From contig NZ_JAPJDC010000001.1 of the NCBI RefSeq assembly GCF_026241855.1, positions 2,046,001 to 2,110,000 on the forward strand: a stretch of 64,000 nt of DNA, read 5' to 3'. Below, in pieces: positions 10,341 through 55,408 of this stretch (its first letter is position 1; the number at the start of each line of letters is the position of its first letter). Position numbers and translations under genes: made by a program. The notes under the pieces were generated by a model, which worked only from the letters and a program-made list of their open reading frames with translations, had not been told where the DNA came from and did no database searches. The stretch comes from Curtobacterium flaccumfaciens pv. betae. Lineage in GTDB: Bacteria; Actinomycetota; Actinomycetes; Actinomycetales; Microbacteriaceae.

Positions 10341-10361
10341 GTGCGGTACCGGGCAGCCCTG

Positions 10362-10811: not shown

Positions 10812-10813
10812 GG

Positions 10814-37860: not shown

Positions 37861-37870
37861 TCCGTCGCGG

Positions 37871-37904
37871 GTGCTGATCCTCGGTCGGCGCTGATCCTCG
37901 GTCG
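37871..37904. repeat. 17-bp tandem duplication
   Basis: Two adjacent copies of GYGCTGATCCTCGGTCG between the asparaginase stop and the end of the two-TM protein gene, with degenerate copies on either side. No hairpin; looks like slippage in a short spacer. Confidence 0.7.
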
Positions 37905-37923
37905 GTGTTGTCCTTGGCGCTGG

Positions 37924-38685
37924 TCATCGGTCCGCACGGACGGGGTCAGGGGCGAGGACCGGCAGTGCCGGGAACACGCGGACGACCCCGTGGCCGTCGA
38001 GTCGACGGACGGAGCAGCCGTACCGCGAGACCTCGACGGTGACGTCCCGGTGTCGGGGCGCTGCTCCGAGTCCGGGGACGAGCACCACCGTGCCGTGCGG
38101 TCGGCCGTCGGCGCCCATCCACACCGCGACCGAGGTCCCCGACGGGAGGGTCTCCACTGACGGCGCGCTCGAAGTGGTCGGGGCCGGATCGTCGCTGCGG
38201 GAGCCCGCGGCGTCGAGGAGTCCTGGAGCGACGGCCCACCGCAGATCGTCGTCGGCGTGGACGGCAGCGGCGCGGAGCTGCTCGGCGAGCCCACGGAACA
38301 CCGCGACGGCGAGTGCTCCGGCCCCGACGACCACGATGTGGGAGCCGGCGTCGACGCGGAGCAGGTTGCCGCCCGGCCCGTGCCCGAGGACGACTACCGC
38401 GGTGCCGTCATCGTCCTCGGGGGTCGTGCCCGTCGGCTGCGCCGGCGAGCCGAGGGGATCGGCCGCGACGGGCTGGTCCGGCGCACGCGGCGCAACGACC
38501 TGGGCCGGACGGGTTCCGGGATCCGGCAGCGCCGATCGGTGCAGCACCACGTCGACCAACGCGCAGCACGCGCCCGCGCCGAGCAGGACGCTCTGCCCGG
38601 CGCCACTGATCGGCGCGAGGACACCGGCCACGACCAGCGCGACCGCTGCCCCCACGATCACACAGCGGGCGGCGAAGCGGGACAT
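37924..38685 (-). CDS. Unknown protein with two N-terminal TM helices
   Basis: 253 residues. Two hydrophobic helices (about 8-26 and 31-48), a Pro/Thr/Asp linker, then a soluble domain with GGNLLRVDAGSHIVVVGAGALAVAVF and AVWMGADGRPHGTVVLVPGLG. I do not recognise the fold. A good GATGGGG precedes the ATG. Last gene of the phospho-signalling/envelope cluster, 65 bases after the zinc-ribbon/FHA gene; membrane position fits the cluster's theme. Confidence 0.75.
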   Translation of the reverse strand: MSRFAARCVIVGAAVALVVAGVLAPISGAGQSVLLGAGACCALVDVVLHRSALPDPGTRPAQVVAPRAPDQPVAADPLGSPAQPTGTTPEDDDGTAVVVLGHGPGGNLLRVDAGSHIVVVGAGALAVAVFRGLAEQLRAAAVHADDDLRWAVAPGLLDAAGSRSDDPAPTTSSAPSVETLPSGTSVAVWMGADGRPHGTVVLVPGLGAAPRHRDVTVEVSRYGCSVRRLDGHGVVRVFPALPVLAPDPVRADR

Positions 38686-38750
38686 GTCCCCATCGCACCA
38701 GGGACGAGGGGCCCAGCGCTGGTCCGCGACGGGATCTGTGGAGAAGTCGC

Positions 38751-40766
38751 CTACTGCACGAGGAAGAACTGCTCACCGATGTCGACGCGCGCACCACGCT
38801 CGACGCGGTACCGCCGACCGGGCTCGCAGCGGCGGATCGATCCGTCGATGTGCCGGACCACCGTGCCGTTGCCGGAGAACCGGTCGGAGACCCACAGGTC
38901 GTCGCCGTCGCGGCCGAGCTCGAGGTGGGTCTTCGACACGGACTTGCCCGGATCGTGCACGGTCAGCAGGTCGTCGTACCGCTCCCCCGGCTGCGGTCGT
39001 GGCAGGCGGCCGAGCAGACCGGTGCCGTGCACCCCGAGCCGTTCACCCGTGCTGAAGTGCAGGACGAACGGCGCCCGGGTCGGGGTCTTCGCGACGATGC
39101 GGGTCTCGTCGACGTCGTCGTCGGGGTCGTCGGGCTCATCGGCTCCGGCGTTCGACTCCGACGGGCTCGCCGGCGGGAGCGGCAGCGCGGGTCCGGTCGC
39201 TCCCGGGATCGGGGGCAGCGGCGCAGCCAGGGGCGCACCGGGCGCGGTGGCGGACGGCGCGGAGGACGGGACGGTCGCGGAACCGGGCACCGGCGGGAGC
39301 GGGGCGCGCGGTACGGCGGACGCCTCGGGCTCGCTGACCGGGGCAGCGTGCGCCCGCCGGGCGCGACGGCCCGAACCGGACTGCTCGACCCCGGCGCGGA
39401 CCGGCTCGTCGTCCACCGGGACCTCGTCGTGCGGCTCATCGCCCTGCTCGTCGTGCGCAGCGAGTTCGTCGGCGCTGTTCTCGTCGGACTCGTCCGAGCC
39501 CGCGGGGTCGGACGAGCCCCCGGCCGGCTCGTCCGCATCGTCGGCCGTTCCGGACGTCTCGGTGCCGTCAGGCCCCTGGGTGCCGTCAGACCCCTGGGCG
39601 CTGTCAGATCCCTGGGTCTCGTCGGAGCCCTCTGCTGCCCAGTCGGGTCGGGTCATCGGCAAGGGCATGACCGGGCCGGTGAAGGCCGCGGTGACCGCCG
39701 GGCGGACGGCTCCGCACTCGCCGCAGAAGATGTCGTCGGGCTCGAGCCGGTTGCCGCAGACGTGGCAGATGGTCGTCTCGTGCATGCCGGGGGTGACGAG
39801 CGGGGCCGGACGCGGCGGCCGTCGGTCGATGAGCGGCTCGACCACGGCGGTGTCCCCGGGCTGCGGGGGCGACATGACGGCGGGCTGGTCATCGGCGGCA
39901 CTCGTCTCCGACGCCGCCACGATCACCTCGTCGCGCTCCGGCTCGGAGCCGGCCTGGGCATCCTGTTCGCCCTGTGGGTCCTGTCCGTCCTGTGGGTCCT
40001 GTCCGTCCTGTGGGTCCGACGCAGGAGCCGCGGTGCCCTGCTCGGCGGCCGGGTCGGCGGGTGCTCCTGGCACCGGCGGAACGACCGGCTCGGACGGCCT
40101 CTCGGCAGCCGGGGTACCACGGCCCACCCACCAGGACGGACCGGCGGGTGCCGCTGGGGGTGCGGTGGCGGCCGGCGTTGCCCACACGGGCAGAGCGGGC
40201 TCCGCGGTGTGCGGGGGCGCGACGGGCTGCTGCGCCGTCTGCTCAGGGCCCGGCGTCGCGGCATCGCGCACCGGGGCGGCGGGCGTCGCCGCGCGACCCG
40301 GAGCCGGGGCGATGCGGGTGCGCTCGGGGTCGTCAGCGTCGAGGAGCTCGGACGGGTAGGCGTCGGGGTCGAGAGCCGGCTCCGGATCCGACTGGCCCGG
40401 CGCGCCCGACCAGTCCCCGAGTCCGGATCCGGCGCCGTGCACGTGGGAGGGCGCCTGGCGCGGCGCGAAGTCGTCGGGACGCTGCACCGGCACGGGTGCC
40501 GGCGGTTCGGTTCCACGGCGGTCGGCACCGGTGAGCCAGGCGCGGGTGGCGGGGTCGAGCGTGGCTTCGGGCAACCAGGCGTCGGAGGCCGGGTCGGACC
40601 GTCGGCCGTGGGCGTCGGGCTGCTGCAACGGTGGCGGCGGTGCCTGTTCGACGGGGGTCGGCGCGACCGGGCGACGGCTCGCCGCGGCGGTGACCGCGCG
40701 TCCGCACTCACCGCAGAAGATCGCCCCGTCCGGGAGCATCGATCCGCAGTGTTCGCATCTGATCAC
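38751..40766 (-). CDS. Double zinc-ribbon, FHA-domain protein
   Basis: 671 residues. A zinc ribbon at the N-terminus (C4-x2-C7 ... C18-x2-C21, IRCEHCG ... FCGECG) and a second copy near the middle (C334-x2-C337 ... C348-x2-C351). Both are separated by long Pro/Ala/Asp-rich disordered regions with short repeats. The C-terminal ~105 residues are an FHA domain (GLLGRLPR, SKTHLELG, GNGTVVRH), which binds phosphothreonine. A DETRIVAK motif precedes it. Starts at GTG, overlapping the stop of the transglutaminase-fold gene as GTGA. Probably a cytosolic adaptor reading the cluster kinase's phosphorylation. Confidence 0.88.
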   Translation of the reverse strand: MIRCEHCGSMLPDGAIFCGECGRAVTAAASRRPVAPTPVEQAPPPPLQQPDAHGRRSDPASDAWLPEATLDPATRAWLTGADRRGTEPPAPVPVQRPDDFAPRQAPSHVHGAGSGLGDWSGAPGQSDPEPALDPDAYPSELLDADDPERTRIAPAPGRAATPAAPVRDAATPGPEQTAQQPVAPPHTAEPALPVWATPAATAPPAAPAGPSWWVGRGTPAAERPSEPVVPPVPGAPADPAAEQGTAAPASDPQDGQDPQDGQDPQGEQDAQAGSEPERDEVIVAASETSAADDQPAVMSPPQPGDTAVVEPLIDRRPPRPAPLVTPGMHETTICHVCGNRLEPDDIFCGECGAVRPAVTAAFTGPVMPLPMTRPDWAAEGSDETQGSDSAQGSDGTQGPDGTETSGTADDADEPAGGSSDPAGSDESDENSADELAAHDEQGDEPHDEVPVDDEPVRAGVEQSGSGRRARRAHAAPVSEPEASAVPRAPLPPVPGSATVPSSAPSATAPGAPLAAPLPPIPGATGPALPLPPASPSESNAGADEPDDPDDDVDETRIVAKTPTRAPFVLHFSTGERLGVHGTGLLGRLPRPQPGERYDDLLTVHDPGKSVSKTHLELGRDGDDLWVSDRFSGNGTVVRHIDGSIRRCEPGRRYRVERGARVDIGEQFFLVQ
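39971..40017. repeat. 18-bp tandem repeat in the zinc-ribbon/FHA gene
   Basis: Unit cctgtgggtcctgtccgt, 2.6 copies, encoding DPQDGQ repeats in the disordered acidic linker of the minus-strand gene. Confidence 0.8.
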
Positions 40767-43234
40767 GTGGTGCCTCTGTCCTCACTCGGCCGTCCACGAC
40801 GCTCGTCCGGCCTCTGGACATCGTAGTCGCCGTGCCCCGACGCAGCCTGGCCGTCGGTTCCACGACGGGACCGTGCCGTCGGACGACGCCCGGCTCCCCG
40901 CAGCGACCGGAGCGACACGGCGGTGCGGAACCGCTCCCGCCGGGTCCGCCCGGTCCGGAGCGAACCGATCGCGTCGTCCGTCGCCGCCCACATGCGATCG
41001 GCGGTGGACTGGTCGGCATCGCTCGGACCGAACACCGCACGGTCGGCCAGCGCCGCGAGTCCGGTCCCGCCGTCGCCCGGTGCACCGACGACGGCTTCAC
41101 GCCGGGTGGCGGATCGCCGTACGTCGTGCCCACGGTCGAGCAGCGCGTCGCGGTACTCGTCCCAGGCGCCGACGATGCGACCCCGGTGCGTGGTGGCGTT
41201 CCGCCGTCGTCGCCGTCGCAGTCGCTTCAGCAGCACGATCACGGCGAACGGCAGCAGGACGAGTGCGACGACGCCGAGGGTCCCGAGGGCCCAGGGCAGC
41301 ACCGCGAGCAGGATCCGGAGCCAGAGCGGCTGCACCGGCGGCGTGTTCCGGTCACTCTCCGGAGGCGTCTGCTGGTCCTGGTCCTGCTGGTCCACCGGGG
41401 GCGGCGGCACGACCGTCTCCGGACGGGTCACCGGCTGCGGGGTCTGCTGCTGCTCGTCCGGGATCTCGCGCACCTCGGGGTTGGGGTTGAGCATCACCCA
41501 CCCCCACTGCGCGGTGTCCACCTCGATGCGGGCCGTGACGTCGGACCCGCGGAAGGTCGTCGTCCCGCCACGCGCTGCGGTGCCGTCGCTGCCCGAGTCG
41601 CCCCCGGCGGTGAAGCCCATCACGACCCGCGCGGGGAACCCGATCTGGTCGGCCATCAGCGCGGCCGCCGCGGCGTACTGTTCCTGGTCCCCGATCATCA
41701 GGGGCGCGGTGAGGAGCTCCTGGACACGGTCGGCGCCGTGGCCGGACCGGCTCATCCGGTCGTCACCGACACCGTGACTGACGTACCCCTTCCGCTGCAG
41801 TGCCTGCACCGCGGCGAGGAGCTTCGCACCGGGTGCCGAGACGTCCTTCGTCGTCGACTCCACGGTGTCGCGCACGGCGTCGGGGACGTCCCGTGCGGTG
41901 GGGACCGCTGCGCTCCCCGGCCGCGCGGTGGCCAGCTGCCGTTCCGTCGGCTGGTCGGGCAGCACCGCCGTCAGGTCGTAGGACGTGCCGTCCCCCACTC
42001 CGCCGACCACGGCGCCGGTGCCGGTCGATCCGTTGTAGAAGAACGCGCCGCGCTCGTCGTCGGCGTCCTGCCCGGTGAACTCCACGCGCTCCAGGTCGCC
42101 GACCGTCGGCAGCCACACACCGCGGTACCCGTCGACCGTCACACCGACGTCGACCGTGGTGCCCCGGACCCCACGGACGTCGACCGAGGTCGGCACGCGT
42201 TCGAAGGTGCCCGAGCCCGCCGAGCCGTCGGCACCGCCGACCCGGTAGACCACGCCGTCGTAGGTGTCGAGGGTCGCGATGCGGACGAACCCGCCCTCGG
42301 GCAGGCCGGTCACCCGGAGCTGGGTCGCGTCCGAGGCGGTGGATTCCTCGTAGGCGCGGAACCCGCTGAGCGGACTGACGTAGTCGCGGGGGTCGAACGG
42401 CTTCACGACGTCGGTGCGCGCGACGATGCGGTCGCCGGAGGGCGGTGCGACCAGGCCGAGCCCGGTCGCGACGACCGCCGCGGCCACGATGGTGCCGGTG
42501 CCCACGAGCGCGGGTCGGACGATGGACCGTGCGACCGGCACACGGGAACCGATGGTGGTCGCCACGGCGACCGCGCGACGCGCGTGCCGGACCGTCAGCG
42601 CCCAGACGAGGGCGAGGCCGACCAGGACGACCGCCGTCACGATCGACGTGTCGAGCCGGCTCGGCCCGACGACCACGCCCACCGCGAAGAGCACCAGTGC
42701 CGGGATGCTCGCGAGTTCCTGCCTGGAGGCGCGGGTCGCCACGCTCACGGCGGTCACCGTCGCCACGAGCAGCGTCACGAAGTAGGGCACGAGGAGCGCT
42801 TCGTAGGAACCCACCGGAAGGCTGATGGTCACCAGCTGCTTCCAGCCGAGGGCGACGCCGGCGAAGAGGTCGAGGAGTCCGTGTCCGGTGGGCAGCAGGC
42901 CGTTCGCCTGGCTCGGCACGGCGGCGGGGACGCCGGTCAGCGTGAACGCGGCGACGGTCGCGATCGCCACGACGGCCATCGGGAGCCGGAGCAGGGTGCC
43001 GAGGAGCGCGACGACCGTCCCGATCACGATCGCCGTGACCGCGGCGGTGATCATCGCGCCGTCCCGGTACACCGGCCACCAGGACGTGCTCGCGACGGCC
43101 AGCAACAGCCAGACCGCCAGTGTGCCGCCGGCGAGGCGGAACGGGACGAGCCGGCGGGCATCGCGACGGTCGGACCGTCGGGTCGAGCGTCTCGCCCGGT
43201 CCGGGGCCGGGGTGGTCACGGGTGCGGCGCTCAT
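40763..43234 (-). CDS. TgpA-like transglutaminase-fold membrane protein, active site lost
   Basis: 823 residues from ATG at 43232-43234. Several TM helices occupy about 30-220 and one more lies near 635-665. Between them is an extracytoplasmic region with a transglutaminase-like core, and a charged cytosolic C-terminus follows. The core alignment landmarks are clear (QYAAAAALMADQIGFPARVVMGF, then ARIEV, then WGWVMLNPNPE). However, the expected Cys is Q517, the expected His is T567 and the expected Asp is N583. So it is probably a pseudoenzyme with a scaffold or binding role. ATGA overlap with the DUF58 gene; the MoxR-DUF58-TgpA triad is widespread. Confidence 0.88.
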   Translation of the reverse strand: MSAAPVTTPAPDRARRSTRRSDRRDARRLVPFRLAGGTLAVWLLLAVASTSWWPVYRDGAMITAAVTAIVIGTVVALLGTLLRLPMAVVAIATVAAFTLTGVPAAVPSQANGLLPTGHGLLDLFAGVALGWKQLVTISLPVGSYEALLVPYFVTLLVATVTAVSVATRASRQELASIPALVLFAVGVVVGPSRLDTSIVTAVVLVGLALVWALTVRHARRAVAVATTIGSRVPVARSIVRPALVGTGTIVAAAVVATGLGLVAPPSGDRIVARTDVVKPFDPRDYVSPLSGFRAYEESTASDATQLRVTGLPEGGFVRIATLDTYDGVVYRVGGADGSAGSGTFERVPTSVDVRGVRGTTVDVGVTVDGYRGVWLPTVGDLERVEFTGQDADDERGAFFYNGSTGTGAVVGGVGDGTSYDLTAVLPDQPTERQLATARPGSAAVPTARDVPDAVRDTVESTTKDVSAPGAKLLAAVQALQRKGYVSHGVGDDRMSRSGHGADRVQELLTAPLMIGDQEQYAAAAALMADQIGFPARVVMGFTAGGDSGSDGTAARGGTTTFRGSDVTARIEVDTAQWGWVMLNPNPEVREIPDEQQQTPQPVTRPETVVPPPPVDQQDQDQQTPPESDRNTPPVQPLWLRILLAVLPWALGTLGVVALVLLPFAVIVLLKRLRRRRRRNATTHRGRIVGAWDEYRDALLDRGHDVRRSATRREAVVGAPGDGGTGLAALADRAVFGPSDADQSTADRMWAATDDAIGSLRTGRTRRERFRTAVSLRSLRGAGRRPTARSRRGTDGQAASGHGDYDVQRPDERRGRPSEDRGTT

Positions 43235-44646
43235 GCTGCCGACGCCGATCGGTGCAGGGCGTGCCGGAGGTCGTCCAGGTAGCCGATGGTCATCACCGTC
43301 AGACCCGCGACACGCAGGAACCGCGGCTGAGCCTCGGGCTCGCAGATCACCGCGACGACCTCCACCCCGACGGGGAACCGCGTGGCGGCGAGTCGGAGCG
43401 CGGGCAGGCCGACGGTCGAACCCACGACGAGGAACGCGACGGAGATGCCGTCGGTGTCGCTCCCCACGATCCGGGAGACCTCGGCGATCGGCAGGCACGC
43501 GTCGGCCAGGCCGACCGAGGCGAAGTCGTCGAGCAGGCGCGTCGGCGTGACGGTGGGGAGCGTCCGGACGGCGTACACCGCACGCTTCGCGAACTCCGGC
43601 GTGCGCTGGGACACCACGACCGAGACCTCACGGCCGTCACGGATCGCCCGCGCGCCGAGGGAGGCGGCCGCGCTCACCGCGAGCTCGAACTCCTCGTCGT
43701 CGGCGAACTCACCGCGGGCGATGCCGAGCGCGACGACGAGGTGCGAGCGACGGGTGTCCTCGAACTGCCGGACCATGAGCGCGCCGGACTTCGCGGTCGA
43801 CTTCCAGTGGATGGTGCGCGGGTCGTCGCCGGGCATGTACTCGCGGATGGCGTGGAAGGCGATGTCCGCGGGCGACAGGTCCGTGGTCGCCTGCCCCTCG
43901 AGGTCACGCACCAGCCCGGTACTCGTCGACGGGATCGCGATGGTGCGCGGGTGCACGATGACCTGCTCGCGGGCGGTCCAGACGAGTTCGCGGCGGACGA
44001 GTCCCACGGGGTCGGCGCGGACCCCCGTCACGGGCCCGACGTCGAGCACCCCGCGGCGGAGCGTCGGGACGGGGACCTGCCGCTCGAAGTCGCCGTGCGG
44101 CCCGATGGCCGGGATCGCGACGTCGACCAGACCGGATCCGACCGGCACCTCGACGGTGGTCGGCACCGACGGCAGGCGCGTGGGGTTCTCGGCCGTGATG
44201 ATCACACCGGCGTCATCGCCGACCGCCACACGGTGCTGCGGGAGCCGCATCCGGATCACCAGCCGTGACCGGCCGATCAACGCCACCGCAGCGACCACCG
44301 CGAGCACCGCGCCGGCGAACCCGACGACGACGATCTCCCGCAGACCGAAGCGGTAGCCGGCCACGAACGCGACGAGCGTCAGCGCGGCGACCGTCCACCC
44401 GAGCCCGGTGACGACGGACGAGACCTCGCCCCAGAGACGCAGGACGAGCCTCCAGGCCGTTGCCCAGAGCCGGACGATCCCGATGACCGCATCCGCTGCG
44501 ACGCCCTCGCGGTCACCGACGATCCGCGTCCGGACGTTGGTCATGCCGGTGACCGTCCCCGTGCGCTCGTACGCCGTCGTGCCACGACGCGACCGCGTCG
44601 AGGACGGACGGCGCGAGCGCGTGGAGACGGACCGGCGGTCCGTCAC
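43231..44646 (-). CDS. DUF58 membrane protein
   Basis: 471 residues. A basic cytosolic head, two adjacent TM helices (about 78-122), then a domain with the DUF58 signature (AIREYMPGDDPRTIHWKSTAKSGALMVRQFE) and a von Willebrand A-like C-terminal part. DUF58 proteins are standard partners of MoxR AAA+ ATPases and are thought to act in assembly or activation of envelope or metal-dependent complexes. GTG start overlaps the MoxR stop (GTGA) and the stop overlaps the TgpA-like start (ATGA), so all three are translationally coupled. Confidence 0.92.
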   Translation of the reverse strand: MTDRRSVSTRSRRPSSTRSRRGTTAYERTGTVTGMTNVRTRIVGDREGVAADAVIGIVRLWATAWRLVLRLWGEVSSVVTGLGWTVAALTLVAFVAGYRFGLREIVVVGFAGAVLAVVAAVALIGRSRLVIRMRLPQHRVAVGDDAGVIITAENPTRLPSVPTTVEVPVGSGLVDVAIPAIGPHGDFERQVPVPTLRRGVLDVGPVTGVRADPVGLVRRELVWTAREQVIVHPRTIAIPSTSTGLVRDLEGQATTDLSPADIAFHAIREYMPGDDPRTIHWKSTAKSGALMVRQFEDTRRSHLVVALGIARGEFADDEEFELAVSAAASLGARAIRDGREVSVVVSQRTPEFAKRAVYAVRTLPTVTPTRLLDDFASVGLADACLPIAEVSRIVGSDTDGISVAFLVVGSTVGLPALRLAATRFPVGVEVVAVICEPEAQPRFLRVAGLTVMTIGYLDDLRHALHRSASAA

Positions 44647-45614: not shown

Positions 45615-45673
45615 GCGGGATGGTCCTTCGGTCGTGGCGGGAGGGCGGCGTTGGCGGGTCGGGGCGGCGGGGA

Positions 45674-48600
45674 TCAGCCGCCGGGGGTTGGTTCCGGGGC
45701 AGGCTGCTCGGGAGCGGGAGCGGGGGCATCGGCAACCGGGAAGGCCTCGGTGGGCTCACCCTCCTGGGACAGCTCGGACCCGTCCGCTGTCCTGACGGTC
45801 GCGCGGACCTTGACGGAGCTGGCACCGACCGGAGGGGTCGGAGCGGTCTCCCCTGCGTTCCAACTGTCGGTGCCGACGAACACGTTGCCGCCCTCGTCGA
45901 GGAACCAGTCGGCGGTGAACCGGACCGTGCCACCGCCGGGACCCGAGACCACCAGCGGCTTGCCCTGCTGCGCCGCGGTCACGGCCACACGGGTGTCGAA
46001 GGCGGCGGCGGCACCGGTCCAGGACTGGTCGTCCGTCGTGCAGAACGTGCTCCCTGGTCCGCCGCACGCGCGGAGGACCAGCTGCGAGGAGACGTTGCGA
46101 CCGCCCGTCCCAGGAACACCCGTCCACGTCTGACCCGGCTGCAGCCTGACCGTCTGTCCGCCGGTGTCGAGCTGGTAGTGGTCCACGCTCCGCGACGGTG
46201 CCGTCACGGAGACGTTCCAGAGGTTGGTGCTCGTCTGGGTCGTCCCCACGTCCGGCCGGTTCGTCCCCGACGGACGCTCGTAGGTCACGGCGTCGACGTA
46301 CTCGACGTTGCAGAAGAAGCCGTTGGAGACGGTGACGGCGTACCGCGTCGAGCCGCCACCGACGCCCGAGTCACGGGCCGGACTCGAGCTGCCGATCGAG
46401 TTCGAGGACGGGGCCGCGCAGTCCACGTTGCCGGATCGGAACACGGCGTACCGGAGACCGGAACCGCCAGCGGCATCGCCAGCGCTCCAGCTCACGGTCA
46501 CGGTCGAGCGACCCGACGAATCCGCCTGGTCGCCGGCTACCGCCTGGAGGTTCGTCGGCTTGCCCGGCGTCCCGACCGCGCTTCCGGTTGCGGACGCGGA
46601 GTTCCACTGCACGACGGTGCCGTTGCGGTCTGCGGCGTTCCGGGCCGACACGGTGACCGTGTACTGGGCGGCACTCTGGGCACCGGTGAACGAGGTGCTC
46701 GTAGCGGTGCCGGTGTTGCGGGTGTCGGACAACCCCGGACCCTCGATCGTCACGACGTAGTTGTCGACCGCGCTGCCGTTGTTCGGCGCGGACACCTTGC
46801 CCCACTTGACGTCGAGCTGGTTCGGCGTCGACCTGCTGGGCGTGACCGTGATGCCCTTCGGCGGTGCCGGCACGAAGTCCGCACTCATCGGACCCGAGCG
46901 GGCCGAGGGCTTCGAGTCACCGATCGCGTTGGTCGCCACGACCTGGAACCGGTAGGACTCCTTCGGGTCGAGGCCGGTGACCGTGCACACCGTCGCGGTC
47001 CCGCAGTTCTTCGAGACACCGTTGGTCCCGACGACGCGATAGCCCGTGATGGGCGAGTTGTTGCTCTGCGGGGTCGCCCAGGTCAGCGTGGCCTGACCAC
47101 CGTCGTAGGAGCCGGTGCGGGTGGGCGCCCCCGGCGCGTCCGGGACGTCCTGCACCGAGATCGTGACGTCGCCCCAGACGTACCGGTCGGGGTCGTTCGT
47201 GGCGTCCGCCACCTGGTACTGCAGGTGCGCGTCGCCGGGCTTCGCGGTTCCGGCGACCGCGACCTGCAGACGCGAGCGATCACCGCTCGGCGTGACGGTG
47301 ACACCCTTCGGGAGTCCGCCGGACAGACCGCGGATGTTCACGACGCGCAGCCGCTCGCCGGGGAACGGGTTGGTCGGCTGGTCGTTCGTCAGCACGTCGA
47401 GGGTGGTGGTCGCCCCGCGCTTCGTGACCGCGCGGTCGGCGCCCGGCTGGACCACCGGCCGGGTGGAGCCGACGACGCCCACGGCGACCGTGCCGGCACG
47501 ACCGGCGTTGGCGTCGTCCGCGACGCCGATCCCGATCGACGCGGTGGTGTTCTTCTTCGCGGTGTCGGCGACTGCGATGGTGAGCTGCTGCTTCGCGATC
47601 GACGCGGTCGTCCCAGCGGCCGGCCGGCCGACGATCGAGTACCGGAGCTCCGGCAGGTCCTTCGGGTACGGGTAGTCGGTGAGCTTCGTCAGGTCGATCT
47701 TCCGCGTCTCGCCCGGCTGCATCTCGATCGAGGAGCCCGCGAACGCCGGCGGCTGGTTCGACCGGGGCGTGACCGTGATCGGGAGCACGAGGGTGGCAAC
47801 GCGGCCCTTGCCGCCGTTCGCCGACGAGCCGTCGGTGACCTCGAACGAGATCGACGCCTTGCCGTAGTAGAGCTTCGACGACGTGAACTGCAGCGTCGAC
47901 GAGTCCACCACCAGGCTCTGCCCGTTCGCGTGGGTGGCCTTGACCGTGCCGCGGTCGGTGATCTTCGCGGTCTCGCCGTTCGCCGTCACGACGAAGTCCT
48001 GCAGCGGGATGCGGACCGTGGCCTCGCTCTTCACCGTGACCGCGCCGGCGCTGCGGTTGATCTGGGGCAGGGCGTCGTCGAAGCCCGGCACGTTGATGAA
48101 GCCGTAGGAGACGATGTCCGGGTGGTCGAGCCGGGCGACCGAGAACGGGATCACCTGCGAATCGTCGGTCAACCGGACCGTGATGCGGCCGTCGCCGGTG
48201 GGCGTCGCCGTGTCGCCGTAGCCGGGGACGACCCCGACCCGGAGGTCGGCCGCGGTGCCCTCGGCGAAGAAGACGTTGTCGAGCACGTCGACGGTCACGC
48301 TCTTCCGGCGGAGGATGTCCTGCAGGTCGAGGGTCGTGTCGTCGACCTCGGGCCGGAGCGGCTGGGCGTCCGGGTCGACGGTCACCGTGAGGAAGGTCGT
48401 GCTCGATCCCCCGCTGCTGTTCGCGACGGTGTAGAGCACGGCGTAGTCACCGCGCTTCGCCGACTTCGGGGGCGTGACGCGGATCTGCTGCTTCCGGAGG
48501 ATCTTCGCGGTGACGTCCTCGGCCGTCGGCTCGGCCTGCGCGACGGTGAGCTGCCCGCCCTCGGGGTCGGAGTCGTTCTGCAGGACACGAACCGTCACCG

Positions 48601-51529
48601 AACCACCGGGACGGATCGTGACGTGGTCGGCCTCGGCCACGGGGTTCGAGGCCTGCTCGGCGCGGGGTGCGATGCCCACCCGCACGGTGCCGGACGCACG
48701 GGCCCCGAGAGCGTCCACGACCGTGTAGGTGAACTCGTCGGTACCCGCCGAGTAGTCGCCGGCCTCGTAGGTCAGGGCGTCCGAGGCGACGTCGGCGACC
48801 GATCCCTTGTCGGGGTTGGAGCCCACCCCGACGAGCTGGACGGAGTCGCCGTCCGGGTCGATCCCGTTCAACGGCACGCTGATCCGCACCGACGACCCGG
48901 CGACCACGCGCGCGGTGACGGTCTGCGGGACCGGCGGGTTGTTGGTCGCGGCGTCACGCTCGCGCACCGAGATCGACACGGCGGCATCGGCGTACTGGCC
49001 GTCGGGGCCGGCCACTCGGTAGACGGCGGTGTAGTTGCCCGGCGTCTTCGGGGCGAGGTAGCGCAGGTGGTCACCGGAGACGAACAGCAGGCCGCCGTTG
49101 CCCGGCACGTTCTGCACCAGTTCGGGCTGGAGCGTCAACGGTTCGCCCTCGGGCTGGGTGTCGTTGCCGAGCACGTCGATGTTCGCGACGTCTCCGACGC
49201 GCACGGTGGCGGTGTCGGGCTGCGCGACCGGAGGCTGGATGCGGTCGGGCTTCGGGATCTCGACGACGGTGATCGTGCCGGGGGACGACGCCAACCCGTT
49301 CGTCTCCGTGTACCCGAACGAGACCGGACCGTCGAGCGGCGCCGTGAGCGTGACGCGGACCTTGTGCTGGTCGAGGATGCTCGCCTGCACCCCGCTGCCC
49401 CGTCCGGGTCCGTCGAGCGCCGTCACGAGCAGCACCCCGCCCGCCGGGTCGATGTCGGTCGCGGTGACGTCCGTGTCCTTGGTGGACAGGGTGTTGACGA
49501 ACACCGTCTTCGGCGTGGTGATCGGCGCCGTCGAGGCGTCCGGTGGCGCGAGGACGGTCACCCGGACGATGCCGCTCGACGTCTTCACGCCGTCGGTCAC
49601 CGTGTACTCGAGCTGGTGGTCGCCCGCCCGCTCCCCCTGCACCCGGAAGGTCCCGGCGTCGTAGCTCGGGGTGACGGTGAGCCCGGATGCCGACGACACG
49701 CTGGTCAGTGTCACGGTGCCGTTGCCACCACGCACGTGGTCGAGTGGCTCGACCGTGAAGGCCTTGCCGGCGTACCCGGACACGGGGAACGGGTCGGCGC
49801 GCAACGGGACGGTGCCCTGCTTGGCCACCCGCACCGTCACGGCGCCCCGGCCGTCAGCGCGTCCGTCGCTCACGACCAGCTGCACCGACCGCTCACCGGT
49901 GCGGCCGCTGTCGTTCCGGAAGTCGAGCAGGCCGTCCGGTGTGGTGGACACCCGGTCGCCGTTCGACGCGGTGGCCGACTCCAGGTACACCGGGTCGCCG
50001 TCCGGGTCGATCCAGTCACCGAGCACGTTCGAGACCACGTGCCCGTTCTGGACGACGTCGGCCGAGGTGTCACGGACCTGCCGCGGCGCCTCGTTCTCGC
50101 TGTCGGGGCGCACGCGGATCCGGACCGTCGCGGTGTCCGATCCGCCGTTGCCGTCGGTGATCGTGTACGGGAACGTCACGGTCCCGGTGGCGCGCGGCGA
50201 CAGCGTGACCTGCAGACGTTGTCCGTCACCGACGATCGCGACGCGGCCGGCGGACTTCGAGATGGTGCCGACCTCGCTCACGATGATCGGGTCACCGTTC
50301 GGGTCGTAGTCGTTCAGCAGGACCGGGAGGCTCGTGGTGCGTCCCGGACGAGCGCCCAGATCGTCGTCCACCGCCACCGGCGGCTTCTGGTCCTTGTCGA
50401 CCTCGGGGTCGTCGTCGGAGACCTGCTCCTGCTGTTGCTCGTCGTCCTGCTTGATCAGGTCGGCCCAGTTGTCGATGAGCTGACCACTCCGGTCGATCGC
50501 CCAGGATCGGCCGCTCGTCGGGTCGTTGGCGACCACGGTGTCGCCGTTGTGCAGGATCTGCAGTTCGCTCGTACCGCCGGTGCTCGCCAGCCGCTGCAAC
50601 GCGCTGCCGTCGCACGTGTCGATCGCCTGTCCGCCTGCCCACGCGGCGTACGTGCAGGAGCCGTCGACGTAGGGCCGCGCGGCTCGTCCGGACACCTCGA
50701 GCGCGGTGGCGTCCACGGTGCCGGAGGCACTGACGCGGACCAGGCCCGCCGTGCCCGCGACCGTGACCTGGGCCGTGGTGTCCGACGACCGCTGGAGGGC
50801 CGGCGACGACCCCACCCGGTCGCCGAGCTCGACGGTGCGCCCGTCGACCGACAGGGCACCGCTCGTGCGGTCGAGCACGGCGAGGTGCCCGTCGAACGTG
50901 GCGACCTGGAAGTCGTCGCCCCGGTCCATGTCGACCTTCCACCGTTCGGCGACGGTGAGTGTCGTGCCGACATCGACCAGCGACGCCGTCCCGGTCTTCG
51001 CGGAGTAGACCGCGACGTGGCCGTCGGAGGCGTCGAAGACGGTGTCGGCGCCCAGGGTCAGGTCGGCCTTGGCCGACGCGTCGAACTCGGCGAGGTCGCT
51101 CGCGGGGGTCGACCAGAGCTCACCCGTGTCCGCGTTGCCGATGACCGCGGTGTCGCCCGCGAAGAAGACCTGCGGCGTCCCGGCAGGCAGCGTGATCGCA
51201 TCACCCACGGTGGCGTCGGCGACGTCGACCCGGGCGACCGTGCCCTTGGTCTCGTCGACGCTGTAGACGGTGGAGCCGCGCTGCAGCACGGACAGGTCGT
51301 CGCTGGCCGTCTCGACCGCGGTGTTGAGCTGCAGGATGCCGGTGTTCGCCCGGCCGACCGCGCCGTACTCGGCCGAGGGCACCCAGACGGTGCCGTCACC
51401 GAGGTCGACGCGTTGCGTGTGGTACCCGGTGGAGACGATGGCCGTGGTCGCGACGACGGCGGCGACGAGCACCGAGGCACCGGTGGTCACGGCTGCGGAG
51501 CGGTGCTTCGCGAGGAGGGCGCGGATCAC
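45674..51529 (-). CDS. Giant Ig-like / fibronectin type III surface protein
   Basis: 1951 residues from GTG at 51527-51529. One N-terminal signal-anchor helix (about 12-33) leaves nearly everything outside the cell. Residues ~35-370 look like a beta-propeller (repeated short strands such as GSTVYSVDETKGTV). From about 380 to 1450 come some nine tandem bacterial Ig/cadherin-like modules of the type PPVAxxDxxxxRxG ... VLxNDxDPxGDP. Two or three FN3 modules follow (~1463-1740), then a C-terminal module and a Pro/Glu/Ala tail. The GTG overlaps the kinase stop as GTGA. Likely a cell-surface or wall-spanning adhesin-like protein served by the kinase and MoxR module. Confidence 0.9.
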   Translation of the reverse strand: MIRALLAKHRSAAVTTGASVLVAAVVATTAIVSTGYHTQRVDLGDGTVWVPSAEYGAVGRANTGILQLNTAVETASDDLSVLQRGSTVYSVDETKGTVARVDVADATVGDAITLPAGTPQVFFAGDTAVIGNADTGELWSTPASDLAEFDASAKADLTLGADTVFDASDGHVAVYSAKTGTASLVDVGTTLTVAERWKVDMDRGDDFQVATFDGHLAVLDRTSGALSVDGRTVELGDRVGSSPALQRSSDTTAQVTVAGTAGLVRVSASGTVDATALEVSGRAARPYVDGSCTYAAWAGGQAIDTCDGSALQRLASTGGTSELQILHNGDTVVANDPTSGRSWAIDRSGQLIDNWADLIKQDDEQQQEQVSDDDPEVDKDQKPPVAVDDDLGARPGRTTSLPVLLNDYDPNGDPIIVSEVGTISKSAGRVAIVGDGQRLQVTLSPRATGTVTFPYTITDGNGGSDTATVRIRVRPDSENEAPRQVRDTSADVVQNGHVVSNVLGDWIDPDGDPVYLESATASNGDRVSTTPDGLLDFRNDSGRTGERSVQLVVSDGRADGRGAVTVRVAKQGTVPLRADPFPVSGYAGKAFTVEPLDHVRGGNGTVTLTSVSSASGLTVTPSYDAGTFRVQGERAGDHQLEYTVTDGVKTSSGIVRVTVLAPPDASTAPITTPKTVFVNTLSTKDTDVTATDIDPAGGVLLVTALDGPGRGSGVQASILDQHKVRVTLTAPLDGPVSFGYTETNGLASSPGTITVVEIPKPDRIQPPVAQPDTATVRVGDVANIDVLGNDTQPEGEPLTLQPELVQNVPGNGGLLFVSGDHLRYLAPKTPGNYTAVYRVAGPDGQYADAAVSISVRERDAATNNPPVPQTVTARVVAGSSVRISVPLNGIDPDGDSVQLVGVGSNPDKGSVADVASDALTYEAGDYSAGTDEFTYTVVDALGARASGTVRVGIAPRAEQASNPVAEADHVTIRPGGSVTVRVLQNDSDPEGGQLTVAQAEPTAEDVTAKILRKQQIRVTPPKSAKRGDYAVLYTVANSSGGSSTTFLTVTVDPDAQPLRPEVDDTTLDLQDILRRKSVTVDVLDNVFFAEGTAADLRVGVVPGYGDTATPTGDGRITVRLTDDSQVIPFSVARLDHPDIVSYGFINVPGFDDALPQINRSAGAVTVKSEATVRIPLQDFVVTANGETAKITDRGTVKATHANGQSLVVDSSTLQFTSSKLYYGKASISFEVTDGSSANGGKGRVATLVLPITVTPRSNQPPAFAGSSIEMQPGETRKIDLTKLTDYPYPKDLPELRYSIVGRPAAGTTASIAKQQLTIAVADTAKKNTTASIGIGVADDANAGRAGTVAVGVVGSTRPVVQPGADRAVTKRGATTTLDVLTNDQPTNPFPGERLRVVNIRGLSGGLPKGVTVTPSGDRSRLQVAVAGTAKPGDAHLQYQVADATNDPDRYVWGDVTISVQDVPDAPGAPTRTGSYDGGQATLTWATPQSNNSPITGYRVVGTNGVSKNCGTATVCTVTGLDPKESYRFQVVATNAIGDSKPSARSGPMSADFVPAPPKGITVTPSRSTPNQLDVKWGKVSAPNNGSAVDNYVVTIEGPGLSDTRNTGTATSTSFTGAQSAAQYTVTVSARNAADRNGTVVQWNSASATGSAVGTPGKPTNLQAVAGDQADSSGRSTVTVSWSAGDAAGGSGLRYAVFRSGNVDCAAPSSNSIGSSSPARDSGVGGGSTRYAVTVSNGFFCNVEYVDAVTYERPSGTNRPDVGTTQTSTNLWNVSVTAPSRSVDHYQLDTGGQTVRLQPGQTWTGVPGTGGRNVSSQLVLRACGGPGSTFCTTDDQSWTGAAAAFDTRVAVTAAQQGKPLVVSGPGGGTVRFTADWFLDEGGNVFVGTDSWNAGETAPTPPVGASSVKVRATVRTADGSELSQEGEPTEAFPVADAPAPAPEQPAPEPTPGG

Positions 51530-52938
51530 CCGGCGCTCCCGATCGTCGCGCACTTCTGCGCGCTCGCAGCACCCGTCTTGCCGTCGCGGTTCACCGCGAC
51601 GGCGATGCACTCCTCGTCGCCGCGTTCACCGGAGACGACGAACGTCGTGCCGGTCTGCTGGCTCGAGGACCCGTTGGACGAGATGACGTACGTGTCGCTG
51701 CTGCGCAGCCCCGGGTCGGTCCAGCTGAAGGACACGGACTGCGGCGACGGCTCGGCACGGACCTCGGCCACGACCGGGATCGCCCCGGCGCCGAGCCGAC
51801 CGACGACGACGACCGTGGCGATCGCGAGGGCCGCGACCACGACGACGGCGAGGGACGTCGCCCAGACCAGGGTCGAACGGGTCCGGCGACGGGCACGGGT
51901 CACGGACCCGGTGCGGTGCACGGTGCCGACGCTGTGCGAACCGCCGGCCACGACCCCGCCCTGCACCGCGCGGCGGGTCCGACGACGCGCACCGACCCGG
52001 GTGGGTGGCTGCAGCTCACGGATCACGGTGCGGTCGCCGTGCTGGGTGGGCGTCGAGATAGCCCAGGCCTCGACCGCGACGTCGGCGGACGTCTGCGGGA
52101 TGCCGAGCTCGGCCTCGACCTGTTGGAACCCACGCACGAGTTCCATCACCGTCGCGGGGCGTCCCTGCGGCTTGCGGGAGAGCGCCGAGGCGAGCAGGCG
52201 CTCCAGCGACGGCGGCACGTCGGTGCGACCGGTCGGCTTCACGCCGCCCTTGTCGATCCGGTGCATCAGGTCGTTCGCACCGTTCTTGCCACCGCGGACC
52301 TCGAACGGGCTGCGCCCGGCGAGGAGCGAGTACACCGTCGCCGCGAGTGAGTACACCTCGGACTGGATCGTGCCGCGCGACTCGTCGATCAGGACCTCGG
52401 GCGCGGACCACGGGATCGACATGCCGATCGGCTCGTCGGGGTCGCTGCCCCCGATCGTCGCGGCGATGCCGAAGTCGGAGAGCACGGGGTTGCCGTAGGC
52501 CGTCAGCAGGATGTTCGAGGGCTTGATGTCGCGGTGCAGCACGCCCTCACGGTGTGCGGTCTCGAGCGCCGAACCGATGCGGATGCCGATCGACAGCACC
52601 TCGGACACCGGGATCGGTTCGCGACGGTAGCGCTCGCTGAGGGACGACGAGCAGAGCTCCATGACCAGGTAGGGACGGCCGTCAGCGGCGACGCTGGCCT
52701 GGAAGACGGTGAGGATCGACGGGTGCGTGCTGAGCCGGGCCATCAGGTTGGCCTCGGCCTGGAACATCTGCCGGACGCGGTCGTCGACGACCTCGTCCAG
52801 CAGCACCTTCACCGCGACCTGTCGTCGGGGCATGTCCTGTTCGTAGAGGAAGACGTCGGCGAAGCCACCGGACCCGAGGACGTGGACGGGACTGAAACCG
52901 CCGATCACGGGCGGGTTGGACGGCAGGCGTCTCGCCAT
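51526..52938 (-). CDS. Transmembrane Ser/Thr protein kinase
   Basis: 470 residues, ATG at 52936-52938 with GGAGGAGAGG upstream. Hanks-type kinase domain: glycine loop LGSGGFADVF (21-30), VAVK with K44, HRDIKPSN (D137), SDFG (D155), and APE at 179-181. The usual DVYSLG aspartate is replaced by Glu (SEVYSLAA). A juxtamembrane segment holds GDRTVIRE (T304) and a highly basic stretch. A TM helix (about 356-380) leads to an extracellular ~90-residue FN3-like domain instead of PASTA repeats. Next to a PP2C phosphatase and FHA readers, and fused by overlap to the giant surface-protein gene. Confidence 0.93.
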   Translation of the reverse strand: MARRLPSNPPVIGGFSPVHVLGSGGFADVFLYEQDMPRRQVAVKVLLDEVVDDRVRQMFQAEANLMARLSTHPSILTVFQASVAADGRPYLVMELCSSSLSERYRREPIPVSEVLSIGIRIGSALETAHREGVLHRDIKPSNILLTAYGNPVLSDFGIAATIGGSDPDEPIGMSIPWSAPEVLIDESRGTIQSEVYSLAATVYSLLAGRSPFEVRGGKNGANDLMHRIDKGGVKPTGRTDVPPSLERLLASALSRKPQGRPATVMELVRGFQQVEAELGIPQTSADVAVEAWAISTPTQHGDRTVIRELQPPTRVGARRRTRRAVQGGVVAGGSHSVGTVHRTGSVTRARRRTRSTLVWATSLAVVVVAALAIATVVVVGRLGAGAIPVVAEVRAEPSPQSVSFSWTDPGLRSSDTYVISSNGSSSQQTGTTFVVSGERGDEECIAVAVNRDGKTGAASAQKCATIGSAG

Positions 52939-52989
52939 GGTCCTCTCCTCCCCCGGCCGAGCGGCCAGCTCTCTCGACGTGGCCATGTC

Positions 52990-52995
52990 ATTGTA
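52990..52995 (-). promoter_or_regulatory. -10 box upstream of the kinase gene
   Basis: TACAAT on the minus strand, the best -10 match in this region, 51 bases before the kinase ATG in the 130-base spacer after the phosphatase. It would allow the kinase, surface protein and MoxR module to be transcribed apart from FHA-PP2C. No clear -35. Confidence 0.45.
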
Positions 52996-53068
52996 CGAAG
53001 CGTGGGTGACGGACATTCCGCACGCCGATCCCCCACAGCTCGACGCGTTCCCCCAGTTCGGGGGCCAG

Positions 53069-53890
53069 TCAGTGCCTCGGCAGCGTGTCCTCGAGGTCGC
53101 CGTCGTCCGGTGCGGCATCGACCTGCAGCACCACCACGGTGACGTTGTCACGACCGCCGGCCACGACGGCGTCGCCCACCAGACGCTCCGCCAGGTCCTG
53201 CGCGCCCGGCTCACGTGCCGCGATGCGCGCGATGCCGGCGTCGCCGAGCTCCTTGGTCAGCCCGTCGGAGCAGACGATGTAGCGGTCACCGGCTCGCAGG
53301 GGCAGGGTCCACCAGTCCGGTGCCGGCGGTTCGCCGAAGCCGACCGCACGCGTGATGACGTTGCTGTCCGGGTGCTGCTCGGCGTCCTCGGCACGCAACA
53401 GACCGGCGTCCACCATCTCCTGCACCACCGAGTGGTCGACGGTGACGCGGCGGAGCACGCCGTCCTCGATGCGGTAGGTGCGGGAGTCACCGACGTTGAA
53501 CACGAGCGCTGCGGGCTGCCCGAGCGAGGCCACGAGCGCGATCCCGGTGACGGTGGTGCCCGCGCCGATGGCGTTGCCGCCGGCTGCGCGCTCGATGTCG
53601 GCGGTCGCGAGGAGCAGTGCACGCTGGATGCCCTGGCGCGTGGTGAACGGTTCGGCCGTCACCTGTTCGAGCCGACGCACGACCGCGTCGCTGGCGCGGT
53701 CCCCCGCGAGGTGCCCGCCCATGCCGTCGGCGACGACGAAGAACGGCGCGCCCACGATGTAGCTGTCCTCGTTGTGGTCACGCCGTCGACCGACGTCGGT
53801 CGCGGCTCCCCACGAGAGCGTCAGGGTGGCGCCGTCGGCTCCGGGGACGTCGATGGCGTGCGCAGTGGCTGCTCGGCCGAGTTCGGTCAC
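53069..53890 (-). CDS. PP2C-family Ser/Thr phosphatase
   Basis: 273 residues from GTG. All PP2C metal and phosphate motifs are present: RDHNED (37-42), VADGMGGH (53-60), NVGDSRTYR (132-140), VCSDGL (206-211) and GRDNVTV (246-252). No TM helix, so it is cytosolic. It presumably reverses the adjacent kinase's phosphorylation of the FHA proteins and other targets. The FHA gene ends 3 bases before its start. Confidence 0.95.
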   Translation of the reverse strand: MTELGRAATAHAIDVPGADGATLTLSWGAATDVGRRRDHNEDSYIVGAPFFVVADGMGGHLAGDRASDAVVRRLEQVTAEPFTTRQGIQRALLLATADIERAAGGNAIGAGTTVTGIALVASLGQPAALVFNVGDSRTYRIEDGVLRRVTVDHSVVQEMVDAGLLRAEDAEQHPDSNVITRAVGFGEPPAPDWWTLPLRAGDRYIVCSDGLTKELGDAGIARIAAREPGAQDLAERLVGDAVVAGGRDNVTVVVLQVDAAPDDGDLEDTLPRH

Positions 53891-53893
53891 GTG

Positions 53894-54742
53894 TCAGGAT
53901 CGCTCTCTGGTGGGTCGGGGCGTGCCGTGTGCTGTCTGATCGGAGGGCCACGGGGGAACCGGAGGCAGCCCCTCTGCCGGTGCGACCCGGAGGTACGGCG
54001 AGAGGACCTCGATGGCGTTGCCGTCACCGATCTCGACTACCGTACCCGTCAGCGCCACGATCGACGCACCCGACGCCATGCGGTAGGCGGGCGCACCGGC
54101 CGGGCGGACGACGGTGCCGTTCGTGGACCGGAGGTCCTGCACGACGACGGCTTCGCCCTCGGCGTGCATCCGGACGTGGGACGACGACACCTGCCCGTAC
54201 GCCGACCGCACGGTCACGAGTTCGGGCTGCGGACCACGGGTGACGCGGGGCAGCGACGGCCGGCGGCCGATGACCACCGGGTGGTCGAGCCGGAAGGTGC
54301 GGTCGCCGATGCGGATCGAGGGCACGCGTGCCGCGGGTGCGGCGGGTACGGACGGGACGGCCGGGAGGCCCGGGGCAGCACCCACGAACGGGCCCGCTCC
54401 GGCGCCGGGACGCGCCGGCACCCGGACGACGGTGTCCTCCGGATCGACGTCGTCCACCGCTGCCGGCGCCTGGGCGGGTGCACCGACCGGGGGCCGGATG
54501 ACCGTGTCACCGAGGACCCCGTCGTCGGACCCGGGGTCGGAGTCGGGGTCGGAGTCGGGACCGGCTCCGGGGAGGACGGGACCAGCGCCGCGGATGACGG
54601 TGTCACCGACGGCGTCCGCCGTCCGGTCGCCCGCCGGCGATCGTCGGGGTCGCCGGATGACGGTGTCCTCGATGTCGTCGTCGTACAACCGGAGCCCTCC
54701 CAGTGTGGTCTCCCCCACCGTAGACGATCCGGTCGACCCCAC
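53894..54742 (-). CDS. FHA-domain protein with repeated D-T-V-I-R motifs
   Basis: 282 residues from a GTG at 54740-54742. The first ~140 residues are disordered, with four copies of the motif [E/G]-D-T-V-[I/V]-R (T27, T48, T80, T104) and an ETT near residue 11. The FHA domain follows (about 142-235): VIGRRPSLPRV, SSSHVRMH, STNGTVV. This resembles the GarA-type plan, where a threonine in the N-terminal tail is phosphorylated and can be bound by FHA domains. One base separates it from the upstream gene's stop. Confidence 0.88.
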   Translation of the reverse strand: MGSTGSSTVGETTLGGLRLYDDDIEDTVIRRPRRSPAGDRTADAVGDTVIRGAGPVLPGAGPDSDPDSDPGSDDGVLGDTVIRPPVGAPAQAPAAVDDVDPEDTVVRVPARPGAGAGPFVGAAPGLPAVPSVPAAPAARVPSIRIGDRTFRLDHPVVIGRRPSLPRVTRGPQPELVTVRSAYGQVSSSHVRMHAEGEAVVVQDLRSTNGTVVRPAGAPAYRMASGASIVALTGTVVEIGDGNAIEVLSPYLRVAPAEGLPPVPPWPSDQTAHGTPRPTRERS

Positions 54743-54743
54743 G

Positions 54744-55310
54744 TCATCGACGCTCCCACGACGGCCCGCTGCCCGCGACGACCGAACGCAGGACGAGCCC
54801 CGCGAGCGGGTCGTCGACGCGCGTCTCGAGGGCGTACCGGGCACGCGTCTCCGCCCGGGCCCAGGACCCGAGCGCCCACGCGCACCAGGCACCGAGCGAC
54901 AGGGCACCGGCGGCACCCGACGATCCGTCGAAGGGGCCGTCCTGCGCCCGCCACACCCGCCACGCGTCGGCGCACCGGTCACCGGCGAGCCGCACGCGGG
55001 CACGATCGGGAGCCGGGCCGAAACCGTGGAGCGCCGGTGGTGTCGGGTCGGCGAAGGGGTCGAACACCCGGATCGACCGCGGGTCCGGCGTGCCCTGCGC
55101 CGCGATGAACGGCACAAGGGCCATCCGGGGCGCGAGTGCGCCGCACGCGGTCACCACGGCCGTCGCAGCCGCCGTCGACAGGTCCGCACGGCCGGGCGCG
55201 ACCAGCGCGGCCGCTGCGGCGGGGAGGGTGACCGCCGCGGCGATCTCGCGAGGGAAACGGACTGCGGAGCCGGGGCCGGACTGTGCCGTGAGAGGGATCA
55301 TGCACGCCAT
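54744..55310 (-). CDS. DUF4192-like Ala-rich protein
   Basis: About 188 residues, Ala-rich, no TM helix of good quality. The C-terminal stretch (LGAWCAWALGSWARAETRARYALETRVDDPLAGLVLRSVVAG) resembles the end of actinobacterial DUF4192 proteins; the rest I do not recognise. Start uncertain: ATGs at 55350-55352, 55308-55310 and 55299-55301 are all in frame and none has a good ribosome-binding site. First gene of the signalling cluster, with 1-base spacing to the FHA gene. Confidence 0.6.
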   Translation of the reverse strand: MACMIPLTAQSGPGSAVRFPREIAAAVTLPAAAAALVAPGRADLSTAAATAVVTACGALAPRMALVPFIAAQGTPDPRSIRVFDPFADPTPPALHGFGPAPDRARVRLAGDRCADAWRVWRAQDGPFDGSSGAAGALSLGAWCAWALGSWARAETRARYALETRVDDPLAGLVLRSVVAGSGPSWERR

Positions 55311-55408
55311 CGAAGCGTGCTGCGGGCCTCCAGGCAGGGGCGCCCCGGCCATCTGTGGACCGGAGCTGCCCCACCCACGCCTGTGGAGGACGAGCCGGCG
55401 GAACCCGC

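Follow-up and report, generated by a model that had tools for sequence, protein, structure and literature searches.

A PFNA-type operon in Curtobacterium with a Cys-less transglutaminase-like protein and, in relatives, a linked type VII secretion ATPase

We analysed 64,000 nucleotides from Curtobacterium flaccumfaciens pv. betae (assembly GCF_026241855.1, contig NZ_JAPJDC010000001.1, positions 2,046,001 to 2,110,000), referred to below as the window. According to its open reading frames (ORFs), the window contains a minus-strand unit of ten genes running from 55310 to 37924, which is nearly certainly a PFNA-type operon (pkb2-fn3-moxR-duf58-tgm with prpC and fha genes). Judging from the sequences collected here, this cluster, which we found described only from bifidobacteria, is common among further actinobacteria as well. 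The best overall explanation, which we regard as reasonably likely, is that the locus builds and regulates a kinase-controlled, membrane-anchored, envelope-spanning assembly. A scaffold role of the transglutaminase-like protein (TGM) and a phospho-switch are probable parts of this assembly, and a role in secretion has about even chances. The genes are listed below in their order along the minus strand, together with one predicted domain.

54744..55310, minus strand: small ORF, first gene, ATG at 55310 with the frame open from 55352, no family match
53894..54742, minus strand: FHA-1, 282 aa, GTG start at 54742, FHA domain near the C-terminus
53069..53890, minus strand: PP2C-type Ser/Thr phosphatase, 273 aa (Pfam)
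51526..52938, minus strand: membrane Ser/Thr kinase, 470 aa, ATG at 52938, alternative starts at 52986 and 53016
45674..51529, minus strand: giant surface protein (Ig/FN3 protein), 1951 aa, with anchor, propeller, Ig/cadherin-like array and two fn3 domains
50486..51403, minus strand: predicted β-propeller of the giant protein, about residues 43–348
44643..45614, minus strand: MoxR-type AAA+ ATPase, 323 aa, Walker A and B present
43231..44646, minus strand: DUF58 protein, 471 aa (Pfam)
40763..43234, minus strand: TGM, 823 aa, a membrane protein resembling TgpA, whose pseudo-transglutaminase domain has GDQEQYA instead of the active-site motif with Cys
38751..40766, minus strand: FHA-2, 671 aa, two zinc ribbons and a C-terminal FHA domain, DVDETRIVAK just before the latter
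37924..38685, minus strand: last gene, 253 aa, no Pfam match, divergent even within the genus

In Bifidobacterium, the operon is described as pkb2-fn3-aaa-atp-duf58-tgm, which may be followed by prpC, a hypothetical gene and fha (PMC8430577, PMC10688814, PMC6803598). The window has the same five core genes in the same order and direction, and the proteins are homologous. Its FN3 protein carries two fn3 stretches detected by Pfam and is of similar size (1951 aa against 1994 aa in B. longum). The window differs in having a PP2C and an FHA gene upstream of the kinase and a zinc-ribbon FHA gene after TGM. The initial annotation took the combination of the modules to be unusual; the idea that they had never been seen together was dropped, the PFNA operon being just this combination. 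Profiles seeded with the window proteins were compared with 80 named loci, which had been found through TGM and are the best 80 of at least 580 relatives, those most like a Bifidobacterium query. TGM was matched in 80 of them, DUF58 in 79, MoxR in 78, and the Ig protein N-terminus and the kinase in 77 each. Bifidobacterium or Bifidobacteriaceae account for 77 of these loci, and the other three are from Timonella, Actinotalea and Sanguibacter.

The distribution of the giant protein is much wider. Its first 520 residues matched 100 of 198 sampled genomes of the order at E 1e-12, some of them partially, and 35 of 73 genera, whereas the operon is stated in print to be restricted to bifidobacteria (PMC10688814). 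Named carriers outside the bifidobacteria are Curtobacterium, Timonella, Actinotalea and Sanguibacter. Among 101 genomes from the genus to which B. criceti belongs, 76 gave a match at E 1e-12, that of G349 being weak. Across the phylum, E 1e-5 is reached by 17 of 149, many through Ig repeats alone, and the cluster is found outside the window's class in three genomes (L103, L104, L105). A 2025 review likens the mycobacterial moxR operon to PFNA (PMC12067865). The open-licence literature searched gave no report of PFNA outside Bifidobacterium, of a Cys-less TGM or of a type VII ATPase link, which is weak evidence of absence.

The neighbours of the Ig gene are conserved with it. In 112 regions (111 fetched ones and the window; five of the genomes are from outside the order, and several regions are second copies), MoxR lies on the same strand as the Ig gene in 100, DUF58 in 103 and TGM in 103. 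The counts for the kinase (84), FHA (81) and PP2C (69) are lower bounds, as the regions cover only some 4.6 kb on the upstream side of the Ig gene. At least one of MoxR, DUF58 and TGM is missing from the Ig strand in 12 regions, some of which are contig ends. The gene orders were sorted by stop-to-stop ORF starts, and swaps such as D-M may be artefacts. A TGM match lies within 20 kb in 96 of the 100 Ig carriers; among the four others, G255, G270 and G338 are on short or fragmented contigs. Five genomes have TGM only. Three of them (G241, G183, G312) are cut by contig ends, and in G190 and G210 a 435–457-aa protein matching the N-terminal domain fills the slot of the giant protein. The initial annotation is thus supported in treating the modules as one conserved unit, and the finding that would have spoken against it, Ig homologues mostly without kinase, MoxR and DUF58, was looked for and not seen.

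The active site of TGM should be noted. The catalytic Cys is absent from all cluster TGMs whose active site can be aligned (0 of 100 and 0 of 50), and the catalytic His is likewise mostly absent. The 80 named loci were left out of this test, since they were found via patterns containing GD[SAD]EQY. The cluster TGM is a distinct Cys-less type, whereas other Transglut_core proteins encoded in these genomes do have the Cys. As no alignable copy has the catalytic Cys, we rejected the idea that TGM matures the Ig protein through cross-linking, and the initial annotation is not supported as regards enzymatic maturation. The outer domain is predicted to have a transglutaminase fold. Erythrocyte protein 4.2 is a catalytically dead membrane scaffold. 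It shares the transglutaminase fold (7uzs and 8csw listed), but the organism and sequence are unrelated, and the comparison is an analogy only. Compared with TgpA of Pseudomonas aeruginosa (6g49), the cluster TGM has lost the catalytic Cys and mostly the His. In print, the PFNA tgm is treated as an enzyme. In locus L192, one in-frame stop codon occurs inside the TGM match of the fetched record (10001-12343).

The kinase of the window has HRDIKPSN and DFG, with GDRTVIR in its linker. Among kinases of at least 380 aa, the motifs are complete in 68 of 78, and DGxGG of PP2C is present in 60 of 64. A Thr motif lies N-terminal to the FHA domain of FHA-2, and four DTVIR/DTVVR motifs precede that of FHA-1. 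We selected 56 FHA genes following TGM, two of which fell outside the rule used. Among the remaining 54, 40 have the pattern [DE]x?T[RVILMQ][LVIFM], formulated with these rows in view, within the 52 residues of linker that precede the FHA domain, as compared with 3.2 for shuffled linkers. The motif density is 1.91 per 100 aa in the linker and 0.06 upstream in the protein. In the named loci, 41 of 42 FHA ORFs have the motif (2.5 expected). After two ORFs shared with the first set were dropped, 39 of 40 new ones have it, though these come from related species of one genus and are not 40 independent tests. Phospho-control, as proposed in the initial annotation, is plausible because the kinase motifs are complete in most copies and the Thr motif of the FHA linker is conserved. 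In OdhI/GarA, the protein's own FHA domain binds a phosphorylated N-terminal Thr (PMC2784874). The position of the Thr motif is shared with FHA-2, which differs in its length of 671 aa and its two zinc ribbons; switching in FHA-2 may follow the same principle.

A phospho-motif common to PP2C, DUF58, TGM or MoxR was also sought, and none was enriched over local shuffles; one recurring match in MoxR looks like part of the AAA lid. Walker A is present in 100 of 100 and Walker B in 97 of 100 MoxR proteins. MoxR is reported as a substrate of the kinase (Pkb2) in the PFNA papers (PMC8430577, PMC10688814). In three Bifidobacterium-type loci (L078, L079, L082), EETVLA/DETVLA-like motifs occur N-terminal to the MoxR domain in the MoxR-frame ORFs. 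These motifs, akin to that of the FHA linker, are candidate sites of the published phosphorylation. By eye, the short C-terminal tail of the kinase resembled an FN3 domain, but the tail in the window has no Pfam match, and that in L276 has an fn3 match below threshold.

In the giant protein, the length of 1951 residues given in the initial annotation was confirmed. Residues 10-33 form a membrane anchor, which is followed by the predicted propeller and then, according to Pfam, by a bacterial Ig/cadherin-like array and two fn3 domains. The best database identity is 92%, with 89% to Curtobacterium sp. YC1, and the named close relatives are nearly all Curtobacterium, one being labelled Microbacterium. 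Tandem pairs of giant Ig genes are found upstream of MoxR in L010, L014, L015, L020, L109 and L283. An open frame of 2292 aa runs antisense to the giant gene (45620-52498, plus strand of the window); such frames are common in coding DNA of 71% GC, and we do not count it as a gene.

A link to type VII secretion emerged in relatives. The gene that follows TGM in L277 codes for a 1465-aa EssC-like ATPase with FHA and FtsK/SpoIIIE domains. A 600-aa part of this ATPase matches 193 of 198 genomes at E 1e-8, but strongly in only 54 (at least 565 bits; the next match has 394 bits). A PFNA TGM is present in 48 of these 54 and absent from the other six. The two genes are 3.3–12 kb apart in 32 of the 48, far apart on one contig in six and on different contigs in ten, whereas about 0.9 close pairs in 48 would be expected by chance. 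In all 32 close pairs, from ten families, the ATPase is downstream of TGM on the same strand; TGM positions in weakly scoring families were picked with the Ig positions known. Of the five g120 loci closest to the window (L003-L007), four have a shorter FtsK/EccC-like ATPase immediately after FHA-2, and L006 has one immediately after TGM. Beyond the ATPase, WXG100 is detected by Pfam in three of four regions (two above the cut-off and one just below), and the fourth is weakly similar. Large proteins with helical N-termini that look WXG/LXG-like by eye are encoded nearby (L281:13160-17614, L282:2-4450, L277:751-2103; the last has no Pfam match). They are possible export substrates.

A related arrangement is known as T7SSd (Garrett et al. 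2024, PMC11217815), with a large Ig-like envelope protein, a membrane kinase and an FHA-bearing EssC-like ATPase among components named TsdA, TsdC, TsdD, TsdH and TsdI. The kinase and the FHA-bearing EssC-like ATPase are shared with the present clusters, as is an Ig-like surface protein of very large size that is considered to be envelope-spanning. MoxR, transglutaminase and fibronectin are absent from the main text of that paper.

The last gene of the unit occupies the slot that the FtsK/EccC-like ATPase has in sister-genus loci. It was found in 56 of 99 genomes of relatives, all of the window's own genus, and some copies have an internal stop codon or lie inside longer frames. We do not claim that it is a decayed EccC-like ATPase: phmmer gave no link, and the probability from a comparison of profiles was only 0.3%. 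The first small ORF has no relatives among the fetched loci. Neither of these two genes was matched in the Pfam search, and those between them were assigned, in gene order, to FHA, PP2C, Ser/Thr kinase, Big_9 with cadherin-like and fn3, MoxR AAA, DUF58, TgpA_N with Transglut_core, and zinc-ribbon FHA.

The ten minus-strand genes and six tight junctions described in the initial annotation were recovered from the sequence. Four junctions are 4-nt overlaps: kinase/Ig (GTGA, by which the Ig gene start overlaps the kinase stop as annotated), MoxR/DUF58 (GTGA), DUF58/TGM (ATGA) and TGM/FHA-2 (GTGA). Two are short gaps, of 1 nt between the first gene and FHA-1 (GTG at 54742) and of 3 nt between FHA-1 and PP2C. 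The junctions PP2C/kinase (52–130 nt, set by the choice of kinase start), Ig/MoxR (59 nt) and FHA-2/last gene (65 nt) are looser. The FHA genes stand near the two ends in the window, as annotated, but their position varies elsewhere. Neither promoter-like nor terminator-like sites were seen when 37700-55700 was scanned for consensus sequences (shuffles give 0.2 and 2.4), which does not prove a single transcript. Judged by eye, the genes flanking the unit encode ATP synthase at one end; at the other end are dxr and genes for asparaginase-like, OsmC-like and FKBP-like proteins. Co-transcription is reported for B. longum only (PMC8430577).

These features would fit together as follows. The giant protein would be a stalk, anchored at its N-terminus, with the propeller at the membrane and the Ig/FN3 arm crossing the wall. 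The TgpA-like protein would serve as a catalytically dead membrane scaffold, and ATP-driven assembly would be carried out from the cytoplasmic side by MoxR with DUF58. The kinase and PP2C may set the phosphorylation of the Thr beside the FHA domain of FHA-2; the phospho-Thr would then occupy this domain, as in OdhI/GarA, and the partners would change. In many relatives, an EssC-like ATPase of type VII secretion is linked to the assembly. We propose tentatively, at somewhat less than even probability, that the PFNA module is the phospho-controlled assembly and wall-spanning part of an undescribed actinobacterial type VII secretion subtype. Such a subtype would comprise an EssC-FHA ATPase, WXG100 proteins, a kinase/PP2C/FHA switch, a MoxR-DUF58-pseudo-transglutaminase platform and a propeller-Ig-FN3 conduit. 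The module would have been retained in Curtobacterium and Bifidobacterium, where the ATPase would be either unlinked or lost.

Several observations weigh against the assembly or its tie to secretion. The rows share ancestry, so the counts are not independent. The Thr-motif pattern, written after the 54 FHA rows had been viewed, is missing from 14 of them and occurs in only 14 of 62 other FHA genes of the loci (3.3 expected). In G262, the Ig gene is truly apart from TGM. The Ig array is not a constant part of the clusters, because L276 (1841-3211) and L277 (9154-10458) have short versions with the N-terminal propeller region only, lacking Ig and FN3, and in L281 an 876-aa protein with fn3 and no Ig array replaces the giant one. 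No EssC/EccC ATPase match was found in the window, nor in the named loci with up to 10 kb of flank. The EssC-like ATPase of the Curtobacterium genome is far off (C1:3321590-3323206, in a 1435-aa ORF with an FHA match at 3324308), and the sole WXG100 match of this genome (E 0.001; C1:2465858-2466109) lies in a 916-aa ORF about 0.36 Mb from the cluster. The strong ATPase group is absent from 57 of the 105 genomes with a PFNA TGM, the window's included. The initial annotation was right in outline, that is, in a phospho-controlled, co-conserved assembly, but did not contain the link to EssC-like ATPases in relatives.

The loci of Bifidobacterium and Curtobacterium, with no linked ATPase in the stretches examined, would suit a cell-wall sensor and repair device, in which the propeller-Ig-FN3 protein and the kinase report the state of the envelope and MoxR/TGM remodel it without secretion. 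Retention of the kinase and PP2C in many regions is also consistent with this device, which we consider a doubtful but real alternative; it leaves the 32 same-strand downstream ATPases in ten families unexplained. The host-communication or adhesion operon proposed for Bifidobacterium, with a kinase sensing the host and an FN3 protein binding cytokines such as TNF-α, draws on the kinase-MoxR relationship and on published observations that TNF-α is bound by a B. longum FN3 fragment and induces the operon (PMC8430577, PMC10688814). The Ig protein, however, is matched in half of the sampled genomes of the order, and the cluster is present in three genomes of other classes and in the four non-bifidobacterial genera named above. 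A function bound to animal immunity is thus unlikely to hold generally, and we regard this explanation as unlikely.

Triplets of MoxR, DUF58 and transglutaminase are known elsewhere (PMC6803598), and an ordinary module of this type might lie beside unrelated signalling and adhesin genes by chance and strand bias. We judge this very unlikely, given the co-conservation across many families and the Cys-less type of the TGM. Another reading is an immunity-like MoxR-vWA ternary conflict system, perhaps close to the β-propeller subtype; such systems have MoxR, a kinase and other themes in common with the unit. The MoxR of the window matches Pfam bpMoxR above the cut-off (36.4 versus 27 bits), and a propeller is predicted in the giant protein. 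However, the same MoxR scores far better on plain AAA_3 (213 bits), and Pfam at E 0.01 detects no vWA, which these systems need, in the ten genes. In the published subtype, a propeller of about four blades is fused to the vWA protein, GXXXTAKS is a frequent form of the MoxR P-loop, and most of the systems come from other phyla (PMC7159879); here, the propeller is behind a membrane anchor, with no fusion to vWA, and the P-loop ends in GTGKT. VMAP, iSTAND and FtsH components had no Pfam match in the ten genes, no dedicated models having been run. What is common is MoxR and the word propeller, and we rejected this highly improbable reading for want of a vWA protein.

The kinase-controlled, envelope-spanning assembly bears on how the PFNA operon is understood. 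In print, the bifidobacterial operon is read as a genus-specific means of addressing human immunity, and its use as a source of drugs is discussed. The matches in about half of the sampled species of the order, the Cys-less TGM and the downstream type VII ATPase in ten families together call for a different primary function. If the secretion subtype proposed here is true, the bifidobacterial 'host immune operon' would be a remnant or a branch of a secretion machine.

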